From positions 62,001-126,000 of the forward strand of contig JAICSO010000005.1 of the NCBI GenBank assembly GCA_025936825.1: a stretch of 64,000 nucleotides of DNA, written 5' to 3'. The notes beneath the pieces are model-generated. The model made no database searches and was not told the DNA's origin. It saw nothing but the letters and a program-made list of their open reading frames with translations. Positions within the stretch are counted from its first letter, which is position 1, and every line of letters starts with the position of its first letter. The position numbers and the translations under genes were made by a program. This document shows positions 26,928 through 29,511 of the stretch, piece by piece. Source of the stretch: Terriglobales bacterium. GTDB lineage: Bacteria > Acidobacteriota > Terriglobia > Terriglobales > Acidobacteriaceae.

Positions 26928-27902
26928 ATGACAACGATCAATCCAAACTCGGTAAGCGGTAACAAGAATTTCAAGCAAGATGACGGCGGCTGGAGCAGCA
27001 TGTACCTGCCAGCGATATGTGCGGCGGTCCTGATGGCGGGAGTGCTGTTCTTCGCGATCAACTGGTCGAAGAAGCCTCAGACCACGGCGAAGATCAATCC
27101 GCCGATTCAGCAACAGGCTTCAGCAACGGTTCCAAGCACGCCCGCAGCTTCGGTTCCAGAGAAGCCGAAAAAGGCTCTCAAGAAGCATCATCGTCCAGCC
27201 ACTGCGAAGTACGTGAATAGTGACTACGGCGTTTCGTTCAAGTATCCGGTCAAGTACAGCCTGCAATCAGGCGACAAGCTAGCTTCACTGCCAGTCACAT
27301 ACTTGAAGGAAGGCGCGGTAGCAGTGGCGGCAGTTGATATGCCCGGAGACTCCTATCCCGAAACGGATTTCACGGCTGCGCTGCTCAGTGTGAGTGTCAG
27401 CAATGACATGAGTTCGGACGGGTGCATGCAGTTCAACCAGTCGTCGAAAGAAGCCGGCGACGTAAAGCCGACGATTGTGAAGCTTGGCGCCAACGAGTAC
27501 AGCGTGTTTGAGCAGATCAACGGAGAAGGCGACAACAAGTCTGACCTGAAGTACTTCCACTTGTTCAAGAACAACGCTTGCTACGAATTCGCGCTGGCAG
27601 TCGATACGACCGATCAAGAAGATATGGCCCAGGTCGATCACGGAAAAGTCTTCCAGCAGTTGGAAAAGATTCTGACGACTGCGCGGATTAAGGACCTGCA
27701 GCCCACGGAAGTCCAGGATGCCGACAGAACGTCGTCAACGGGACTGCCGATTGCGGATACACAAACTGCGGACAGCAAGTCTGGGGACGCAGCGTCTGTC
27801 GAATCGAAAGCTGCCGACACCAAGGCAGCCGACGCGAAATCAAGTGACAAGACCGAAAACGCCCAGGTAGTCACGCCTGAGCCAAAGCCGGAACAGAAGT
27901 AA
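26928..27902 (+). CDS. Single-pass membrane protein of unknown function
   Basis: 324 residues from the ATG at 26928, with ACGGAGGGG just upstream. A membrane helix lies at ~28-47 (AICAAVLMAGVLFFAINW), then a Pro/Lys-rich linker (~50-85). A globular domain (~90-250) carries KYVNSDYGVSFKYPVKYSL, GAVAVAAVDMPGDSYPETDF and NACYEFALAVDTTDQEDMAQ. The last ~60 residues are a low-complexity tail of alternating Ala/Asp/Ser/Lys (for example SKAADTKAADAKSSDK). The domain recalls the extracytoplasmic beta domains of PsbP/LpqN-type proteins that start with a DYGVSFKYP strand, but this is only a resemblance. A REP-type hairpin with a T-run follows immediately and may end transcription. Confidence 0.65.
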   Translation: MTTINPNSVSGNKNFKQDDGGWSSMYLPAICAAVLMAGVLFFAINWSKKPQTTAKINPPIQQQASATVPSTPAASVPEKPKKALKKHHRPATAKYVNSDYGVSFKYPVKYSLQSGDKLASLPVTYLKEGAVAVAAVDMPGDSYPETDFTAALLSVSVSNDMSSDGCMQFNQSSKEAGDVKPTIVKLGANEYSVFEQINGEGDNKSDLKYFHLFKNNACYEFALAVDTTDQEDMAQVDHGKVFQQLEKILTTARIKDLQPTEVQDADRTSSTGLPIADTQTADSKSGDAASVESKAADTKAADAKSSDKTENAQVVTPEPKPEQK

Positions 27903-27918
27903 TAACCAAAGTTGTTGA

Positions 27919-28044
27919 GGGGTGCCCCACCCTTGTCGCGTTCTTGGCGACAGGGTGGGGTTTTTGACTTTGCGTGAATGTAGCTCTCAAGATCAAAATC
28001 CCCGTCCTGCCTCGCAAAATACGCGAGACAAGGACGGGGCACCC
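27919..28044 (+). repeat. REP-like double-hairpin repeat, left copy
   Basis: About 126 bp starting GGGGTGCCCCACCC and ending GGGGCACCC. The first hairpin (CCCCACCC...GGGTGGGG) is followed by TTTTT. The second (CCCCGTCC...GGACGGGG) closes the unit. Between them lies GTAG at 27980. The unit repeats at 28657-28778 in the same orientation. Unit ends GGGTGCCCC/GGGGCACCC are inverted. It is also in terminator position for the gene ending at 27902. Confidence 0.85.
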
Positions 28045-28047
28045 GAA

Positions 28048-28584
28048 TTACGATCGATCCCGAACAACGACCTTTGGAAAAATTCCCTGGCGTTCTCGCT
28101 TCCGCGCCGTCCATTGCGACTCAATCTCAACCACTCCCTCAGTTCCAGTCGCGTAGTGCACGAAACTACTCCACTTCCAGTCTTCCGGGCGCTTGACGAG
28201 TCCCCTGACCACCGGATTCCGATGCATGTAACGTAATTTCTCCACGCGCTTCGATTCTCCCCAAACATTGAAGTCATAGTATCGAGGCAGCCAGAATGGG
28301 CTGCCTTCGGGCAAGCGCAGTTCGCGCGCAACATTTTGCTTCAGCATCTGTAGTACGGTCGAGAGGCGTGAGCGCTCAGGTTCGCTAATCAGCAGATGGA
28401 CATGCTCTGGCATAACCACATATCCGCACACGTAGAAGCCATACCATTGCCGAGTCTGTTCGAGTGTTCTTACGAACACATCACGAGCGTATGGTGTCCC
28501 TAGTAACGGCTCACGATTGTGACAACTGAAAGTGACGAAGTGTAAACAGCGCGCTTGCTGGAAGTGCTTCAACCCCCAGGGCAT
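28048..28584 (-). CDS. REP-associated tyrosine transposase (RAYT, Y1_Tnp/HUH)
   Basis: 178 residues of the IS200/IS605-type HUH endonuclease fold. The histidine pair is in VVMPEHVHLLISEPE (about residues 58-65, H-x-H form). The catalytic Tyr is in RVEKLRYMHRNPVVRGLV (near residue 118), followed by KRPEDWKWSSFVHY, the diagnostic RAYT motif. The C-terminal ESQWTARKRERQG is also usual for acidobacterial members. It would cut and rejoin single-stranded DNA at REP hairpins. It looks intact, with no frameshift. The N-terminus MPWGLKHFQQARCLHFVTFS is normal for the family. Two similar hairpin repeats flank it. The start codon at 28584 is followed upstream by ~70 bp before the right repeat. Confidence 0.93.
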   Translation of the reverse strand: MPWGLKHFQQARCLHFVTFSCHNREPLLGTPYARDVFVRTLEQTRQWYGFYVCGYVVMPEHVHLLISEPERSRLSTVLQMLKQNVARELRLPEGSPFWLPRYYDFNVWGESKRVEKLRYMHRNPVVRGLVKRPEDWKWSSFVHYATGTEGVVEIESQWTARKRERQGIFPKVVVRDRS

Positions 28585-28656
28585 GCTCCGAAGCTAAACG
28601 AGCGTCACAATTCTGTCTGTGACGGATGAACATTAGGGGTGGCCCAGCCTTGTCAC

Positions 28657-28778
28657 GGGTGCCCCTTGTCGCGTTCTTGGCGACAGGGTGGGGTTTTTGA
28701 CTTTGCGTGAATGTAGACTCTCAAGATCAAACTCCCCGCCCTGTCTCGCAAAATACGCGAGACAAGGACGGGGCACCC
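28657..28778 (+). repeat. REP-like double-hairpin repeat, right copy
   Basis: Same unit as 27919-28044, differing by a few bases and one small indel, in the same orientation. It ends GGGGCACCC one base from the smpB stop codon (28780-28782), so on the minus strand it can act as the smpB terminator. A partial sequence resembling the repeat end (GGGGTGGCCC...GGGTGCCCC) lies just left at 28635-28664. Confidence 0.85.
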
Positions 28779-28779
28779 T

Positions 28780-29307
28780 CTAGTTCTTTCTCGATCTCGC
28801 GATCGCCTCTCTGGCTTCCTTATCCGCCGTGCGGCGGCGCTCGGTTTGTCGCTTATCCCAGAGTTGTTTACCCTTCGCAAGTGCAAGTTCTACTTTCACT
28901 CGTCCGTTCTTGAAGTACATGCGTGTAGGAATCAGCGTGAGGCCCTTTTGCTGGGTCTTGCCAATTAGTTTGCGGATCTCTTCCTTGTGGACGAGAAGCT
29001 TCCGCGTCCGGAGGGGAGCGTGATTGTAGATGTTCCCGTGCTCGTACTCGCCGATGTGACAGTTCAGCAGCCAGAGTTCGCCGTCTTTGACGATCCCATA
29101 CGAGTCGCGTAGCCCAACTTTTCCGCCCCGGACCGACTTCACCTCGGTACCTGTTAAGGCAATGCCGGTCTCGTATTTTTCCAGCAAGAAATAGTTATGT
29201 GAGGCGATCCTATTGACAGCGGCATCCCTCTGCCCGGCCGCGGTGGGATCGCGCCGCGGATTCTTCTCCGGGTTCGCCTTGGTCTGATGGGTCGCTTGCC
29301 GGGCCAT
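28780..29307 (-). CDS. smpB: SsrA-binding protein SmpB
   Basis: 175 residues with the OB-fold SmpB core: ASHNYFLLEKYETGIALTGT, then EVKSVRGGKVGLRDSYG, the LNCHIGEYEHGN motif, LLVHKEEIRKLIGK and the closing KVELALAKGKQLWDKR. The basic C-terminal tail (TERRRTADKEAREAIARSRK) would enter the mRNA channel as in other SmpB. It binds tmRNA and rescues stalled ribosomes. A ~30-residue N-terminal extension (HQTKANPEKNPRRDPTAAG) is longer than in the E. coli protein. The stop codon is next to the right REP repeat. No ssrA gene was recognised in the window. Confidence 0.96.
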   Translation of the reverse strand: MARQATHQTKANPEKNPRRDPTAAGQRDAAVNRIASHNYFLLEKYETGIALTGTEVKSVRGGKVGLRDSYGIVKDGELWLLNCHIGEYEHGNIYNHAPLRTRKLLVHKEEIRKLIGKTQQKGLTLIPTRMYFKNGRVKVELALAKGKQLWDKRQTERRRTADKEAREAIARSRKN

Positions 29308-29321
29308 TAAGGATAGAGTAG

Positions 29322-29394
29322 CAGTTTCAAGTTTCGAGTTTCGAGTTCCAAGTCGCTGCGCCTCAGTTCCTGAAACTGGAAACTTGAAATTCGA
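29322..29394. repeat. Intergenic palindrome with TTTCAAGTTTCGAG-type arms
   Basis: The left arm carries TTTCAAGTTTCGAG, repeated once more as TTTCGAGTTCCAAG. The right arm, near 29371-29394, is CTGAAACTGGAAACTTGAAA, its imperfect complement. It fills the gap between smpB and the secretin gene. Confidence 0.6.
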
Positions 29395-29511
29395 AGCCGG
29401 CTAATCAACCAGCACGGGTCCAATCAGCTAGCAGCTAGAAGCTGATGCGTTGGTACGAGTACTTTGGTGTAAATGTATGACGAACAGTAACATCGGCGTG
29501 GTTACCCCCGA

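Follow-up and report, generated by a model that had tools for sequence, protein, structure and literature searches.

What is a gene for a tyrosine transposase doing between two copies of a hairpin repeat in an acidobacterial genome, and do the enzyme and the repeats belong together? The locus lies in a stretch of 64,000 nucleotides (the window), which belongs to contig C65 of a genome of 6.54 Mb (G000). Genes for REP-associated tyrosine transposases (RAYTs) flanked by REPs are described as REPtrons (PMC3733652, PMC6006769, PMC2817692), and we consider it very probable that the locus is a REPtron of an acidobacterium, made up of a RAYT gene and of hairpin repeats that are its probable substrates. 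An earlier note on this DNA had proposed a RAYT with a REP/BIME system, a proposal borne out by a profile match above the cut-off, by the dispersal of the repeats and by the association of REPs with RAYTs. REPtrons as a kind are already known, and the GGGTG foot of these repeats makes this one a non-canonical variant; what is new lies in the detail, namely the comparison of the smpB site between species, the apparent change of place of the RAYT and a BIME found in frame. The features are collected in Table 1.

Table 1. Features of the RAYT locus, in coordinates of the window.
Feature	Position	Strand	Basis
324-aa host gene on one side, no Pfam match	26928..27902	+	Homologues beside smpB
BIME/REPIN copy 1, two inverted REP hairpins	27920..28044	.	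Repeat comparison, folding
REP hairpin, ACCC type, foot GGGTG	27920..27967	+	REP alignment, covariance search
REP hairpin, GTCC type, foot GGGTG	27993..28044	-	REP alignment, covariance search
RAYT (TnpA_REP), 178 aa	28048..28584	-	NF047646, Pfam Y1_Tnp, fold match 4er8
Predicted catalytic Tyr119 codon (RYxHRNPV motif)	28228..28230	-	Alignment, 36 sequences
HUH motif codons H61-V62-H63	28396..28404	-	Alignment, 36 sequences
Leader motif TTCATCCGTCACAGAC, 46 nt before the RAYT start codon	28615..28630	-	RAYT upstream comparison
Truncated REP half (foot and left arm)	28637..28656	+	Read from the sequence
BIME/REPIN copy 2, direct repeat of copy 1	28657..28778	.	Repeat comparison, folding
REP hairpin of copy 2, left arm four bases shorter	28657..28700	+	Sequence, covariance search
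REP hairpin of copy 2, GTCC type	28727..28778	-	REP alignment, covariance search
smpB, host gene on the other side	28780..29307	-	Pfam SmpB, 195 bits

The earlier note had seen in the gene an apparently intact tyrosine transposase with an H-x-H motif and a catalytic Tyr, and had named a stop or a frameshift as what would speak against it. The frame of 178 amino acids is open and contains neither. In profile searches the protein scored 97.6 bits against the NCBIfam model NF047646, 'REP-associated tyrosine transposase' (cut-off 80), and 36.9 bits against Pfam Y1_Tnp (cut-off 23); a Pfam search of the 178 residues returned no other domain, and in particular no HTH domain. H63 and N123-P124-V125 are invariant, and H61 and Y119 are each kept in at least 90%, in an alignment (A2) of 36 sequences, four of them distant (L096, L099, L104 and L107), from which L075, L080, L089, L092 and most partial matches were left out. 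The AlphaFold model (pLDDT 87) has as its top fold match in the PDB the E. coli RAYT-REP complex 4er8 (E 8e-10, 24% identity), which was also the top solved match by sequence search. The gene is present in its own genome in one copy at 100%, the next match being 65% identical; it is a low-copy gene with no IS-like set of identical copies, as expected of the RAYT family.

Compared with its closest relative, the RAYT of the congener G007 (83% identity), the gene has pN 0.10 and pS 0.77, and smpB in the same comparison has pN 0.06 and pS 0.71; we give pN and pS alone because dS between the two RAYTs is saturated. To judge from these values, the RAYT is old and constrained, under strong purifying selection. 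Such selection, along with differences in presence and absence between species, points to a system that is functional or was so at least in the past.

The RAYT is placed between two direct copies of a unit of about 120 bp, one on each side, each with inverted ends GGGTGCCCC/GGGGCACCC, just as had been claimed, and the copies agree fully over 54 nt and to 95% over 61 nt. Two hairpins had been claimed for each copy, and both are indeed present, with the qualification that the left hairpin of copy 2 is shortened and is preceded by the truncated REP half. This half is 20 nt long, matches the first REP at 17 of 20 bases and stops where the GGGTG foot of copy 2 starts. Folded as single-stranded DNA, both copies on both strands gave z-scores of -6.0 to -7.1 against shuffles, and in each of the four foldings none of 200 shuffles folded as well. 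An Rfam search of positions 27400-29400 at permissive thresholds gave four sub-threshold miRNA-like matches, which we took as chance.

The hairpin covaries. When 26 hairpins from three genomes were aligned, 95.3% of the cells were paired, and 28 cells had double-sided changes, where shuffles gave 8.5 and slid versions no more than 9, the structure having been drawn from the aligned sequences themselves, which favours it over the slid versions. Since the aligned rows are related, the shuffle figures do not amount to a probability, and two of the five covariation measures showed no excess over shuffles: pairs changed on both sides (5 against 4.5) and further pair types (9 against 9.0). The left arm carries one unpaired (bulged) T, conserved in at least 90%, and GG[G/T]TG stands directly before the hairpin, usually as GGGTG and rarely as GGTTG.

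The internal GTAG that the earlier note had connected with RAYT-recognised REPs is present, at 27980 and 28713, where it forms part of the linker between the hairpins and does not stand directly 5' of a hairpin. It is missing from the linkers of the genome's two other well-matched BIMEs (L011 and L016), and we rejected GTAG as the recognition tag; the conserved tag is GGGTG.

The same foot recurs beside other RAYTs. We scanned the flanks of 35 loci, chosen for near-full RAYT matches, with a pattern that required G[GAT][GTA]T and hence was selective; it returned 69 REPs in 31 loci, 67 of them with GGGT(G), and an inverted arrangement (forward REP upstream, reverse REP downstream) at 19 of the 35 loci, the window included. 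Because of this selectivity, a second scan dropped the requirement for a foot and considered, in each of the 70 flanks, the strongest hairpin up to 300 bp from the RAYT. GG[GT]TG[CG]CC, on either strand, lay on the strongest hairpin in 56 of the 70 flanks and at 34 of the 35 loci. GT[AG]G was found just before the outermost pair in none of the 70 flanks, a weak control as the outermost pair often lies beyond the foot, and within the first 14 nt in five. The REPs of the RAYT neighbourhoods do not, then, carry the canonical GT[AG]G as their hairpin foot. Four of the 69 scanned REPs have the foot GGGTGG, in which the canonical GTGG is embedded; the tag of the acidobacterial repeats may accordingly derive from GT[AG]G by drift and not be unrelated to it. 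In the part of the literature covered, we found no description of REPs with a GGGTG foot, and among acidobacterial systems nothing beyond the TIRYTs (PMC3733652).

The earlier note had proposed counting the repeats in the genome and comparing relatives with and without a RAYT. A covariance model was searched in each genome, with up to 150 candidates per genome scored in the genus and up to 49, under stricter filters, in the family, so that all REP counts are lower bounds. In the host genome the repeats are dispersed, with at least 45 matches at E ≤ 0.01, of which 10 are found 1.5 kb or less from a RAYT match and 28 stand alone in the surrounding 250 bp. Five inverted doublets have their feet outward and gaps of 17-53 bp, two of them being the window's own. 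This copy number is modest compared with the more than 100 per genome described as usual for REPs (PMC2817692).

Among relatives the presence of repeats follows that of the RAYT, with exceptions. The eight genomes of the genus have, in REP matches and RAYT matches, at least 45 and 6 (G000), at least 61 and 5 (G001), at least 29 and 0 (G002), at least 42 and 9 (G003), at least 27 and 5 (G004), 0 and 0 (G005 and G006) and at least 91 and 13 (G007), the RAYT numbers being rows of matches that include distant relatives. Presence of the two agrees in seven of the eight: G005 and G006 (96% and 78% complete), neither with a RAYT match, have no REP at E ≤ 0.01, and the exception, G002, is 65% complete. 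Across 120 genomes of the family, a set that includes G000, G005 and G007 and many incomplete genomes, REPs (E ≤ 0.001) were found in 85 of 93 with a RAYT match (1e-10) and in 15 of 27 without (Fisher p 7e-5, a figure that, like the following, ignores shared ancestry; seven of the 27 are classed as RAYT-free by absence among the matches listed). At REP thresholds of 1e-6 and 1e-9 the association gives p 0.003 and 0.004, and the median number of REPs is at least 12 with and at least 2 without a RAYT match. Eight of the 93 genomes with a RAYT match have no REP match, and two of the 15 genomes with REPs but no RAYT match have 20 or more REP matches. G058 (70% complete) and G040 (99% complete) have at least 23 and at least 25 REP matches and no RAYT match at 1e-10; these are possible orphan REP populations.

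Not only the presence but also the type of the repeats follows the RAYT. We assigned REP class labels by hand from the pattern scan and leader sequences, the latter for class III because the pattern scan had no REP at L085, L087 and L090. Class I stems have TTGTC or TTCCC with the bulged T, class II stems CAAGC..GCTTG and one GAGCC..GCTCG, and the class III stem TTCGC; class IV is that of the host genome's own C108 RAYT. On a tree of 34 proteins, two of them outgroups, built without partial matches and without L075, L080, L089 and L092, whose frames were broken or split in tblastn, the stem classes of all groups together can be explained by four changes, the lowest number possible, where shuffles need 15.2. 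Each of classes II and III occupies one side of a branch, and class I needs three changes. The stem classes have thus co-diversified with the RAYT clades. We count against the REPtron reading that the GGGTG foot is common to several RAYT classes. At one locus (L067, 1193-2661), about 430 bp separate two tandem RAYT genes of different classes, and downstream of each is a REP of its own type.

How might the enzyme act on these repeats? As a single-strand HUH enzyme, the RAYT would bind the folded REP hairpin in single-stranded DNA through the GGGTG foot and the stem, would cut beside the hairpin using Tyr119 and would rejoin the hairpin elsewhere, by which inverted REP pairs (BIMEs or REPINs) would reach new sites as copies or by relocation. 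We take binding, cleavage and strand transfer by analogy from the E. coli, Stenotrophomonas and Marinomonas enzymes, which are reported to cut single-stranded GTAG REPs at CT or CA, REP recognition having been measured for these GTAG-tagged systems (PMC8266576). For the two direct BIMEs, the most likely origin would be entry of the RAYT into a site that already bore a BIME, as the smpB site of G002 does, with duplication of that BIME.

The neighbourhood of smpB in the genus bears on this history. The 324-aa gene is convergent with smpB, and its homologue adjoins smpB in all six congeners having the locus (G003 gave no smpB match); none of the six has a RAYT there. The smpB site of G002 contains one lone BIME, in the same orientation as the window's copies. 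The closest RAYT, that of G007, sits between REPs and adjoins a gene that we take, from its sequence, to be exonuclease-like. Beside the homologue of this gene in G000 lies a RAYT of another lineage, which the window RAYT matches at 47%. Of the repeats themselves, one complete BIME (L011, 1501-1621; G000:C22:77849-77969) lies in frame within an open frame of 931 amino acids, presumably with FG-GAP-like repeats. At this position G000 has 42 residues and the homologues of G004 and G005 have 15-16, too few for a BIME; those of G001, G003 and G007 have other extra residues, and the linker that holds the BIME does not align among the homologues. The RAYT-free sites of the congeners, the lone BIME of G002, the location of the closest RAYT and the in-frame BIME together suggest that the repeats have moved, and over longer times the RAYT gene has perhaps moved as well. 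A single REP is also in frame at L143 (about 1501-1551; G000:C91:185714-185764); it lies in a linker that joins the two GTPase domains of a protein presumed to be Der/EngA-like and that varies strongly across the genus.

We weighed whether the RAYT gene is itself the mobile unit, a REP/BIME-RAYT-BIME segment passing from one REP-bearing site to another through transposition or through BIME-BIME recombination, and not a fixed gene whose repeats alone move. We regard this as possible, though rather unlikely. The distribution of RAYTs around smpB and the exonuclease-like gene fits it, as do RAYTs 92% identical in different contexts within one MAG (L066 and L070), a pair of acidobacteria in which one and the same gene interval holds oppositely oriented RAYTs of different lineages (L036 and L083), and the contrast between an old, constrained RAYT and the two nearly identical BIMEs that flank it. 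On the other hand, RAYT and flanks stay together in L063, L066 and L075, direct BIMEs on both sides were found in the window alone among the 35 loci scanned, and genome rearrangement over dS-saturated distances could also swap neighbours. Exchange between BIMEs by recombination would give the same picture as transposition. We hold it unlikely that Acidobacteriota possess a RAYT-REP lineage of their own that reads GGGTG in place of GT[AG]G and whose RAYT gene is mobile into BIME-bearing intergenic sites, leaving a BIME on each side and placing different RAYT lineages at the same sites in related species. If true, this would go against the idea that REPtrons are not mobile as whole units. The smpB site, which is empty, bears a lone BIME or bears BIME-RAYT-BIME depending on the species, offers a comparison for how RAYT genes relocate. 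At L006 (1946-2296), the C108 RAYT and its REP are followed by a second version of the gene's 3' end and the REP (101 nt, 81% identical), which looks like local copying of a RAYT-REP segment.

Quite improbable, in our estimate, is a decaying or domesticated remnant, in which a host function preserves the RAYT and the repeats are immobile relics. The modest number of repeats and the many that stand alone would agree with it, single hairpins being read as immobile remnants in Pseudomonas (PMC3116915), and purifying selection on the protein is equally compatible with it. The near-identity of the two BIMEs speaks against it, as do the BIME lying in frame where the linker of two orthologues is short and the abundance of REP matches in G007, the congener with the 83% identical RAYT. 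It is very improbable that the hairpins serve smpB and the convergent 324-aa gene as transcription terminators and resemble one another by convergence: they are G+C-rich, lie downstream of both genes and are followed by T-rich tracts, but foot, stem and tail are near-identical at dispersed sites, some inside open frames, and the repeats are associated with the presence of a RAYT. The repeats may still act secondarily as terminators. An ordinary IS200/IS605 insertion sequence with palindromic ends, which the Y1_Tnp domain and the IS200-like fold might suggest, is hardly credible and was rejected, as the protein scores 30.6 bits against the NCBIfam IS200 model NF033573 (cut-off 55), the genome holds no second copy near identity, and most of the dispersed hairpins adjoin no transposase gene.

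Returning to the REPtron reading, the locus resembles several known systems. With the E. coli REPtron (TnpA_REP/YafM, with Y/Z2 REPs) it has in common the HUH fold and the Tyr, BIMEs on both sides of the gene (PMC2817692) and an irregularity in the REP stem (PMC8266576). It differs by the low identity in the fold alignment, by its GGGTG foot in place of GTAG, and by a one-base bulged T where E. coli has a two-base mismatch bulge. The REPINs described for P. fluorescens SBW25 (PMC3116915) are likewise inverted REP doublets with a short linker, adjoining a RAYT and dispersed, whereas the matches in our host genome are mostly single hairpins with another tag and stem and are fewer. With IS608 and ISDra2 of the IS200/IS605 group, the window RAYT shares fold, HUH motif and Tyr, and the unpaired T of the REPs recalls that of the IS608 hairpin (T17) (PMC8266576); unlike these elements, it scores below the IS200 cut-off and is no multi-copy element.

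The tyrosine transposases listed in 2013 as TIRYTs include acidobacterial ones with inverted repeats that are not of the GTAG kind (PMC3733652), in K. versatilis, T. saanensis, A. capsulatum and G. mallensis, and the window RAYT is like this TIRYT/TIRtron group in its host phylum and in its flanking inverted repeats without GTAG. Twenty of 26 TIRYTs are assigned to subclass 2.1, with an HTH domain (PMC6006769). The window RAYT, 178 residues long, has no C-terminal HTH match, its repeats are self-complementary hairpins, and their GGGGCACC does not fit the TIRYT motif GGGGWSAS; the locus thus lacks the marks of subclass 2.1. With a well-kept foot other than GTAG and several stem classes, the lineage lends itself to asking which enzyme residues recognise the tag and how the tag determines where the enzyme cuts.

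Upstream of the RAYT stands the leader motif, which we sought within 130 nt upstream of the RAYTs. A motif like TGTTCAnnnGTCACAGAC, with at most four mismatches, recurs 46 to 48 nt ahead of the start codon at 14 of the 34 other RAYT loci, and one more match lies at -100 in L090. It may be a promoter or operator that RAYT lineages have in common. By eye, the motif is also seen before the divergent RAYT of L006.
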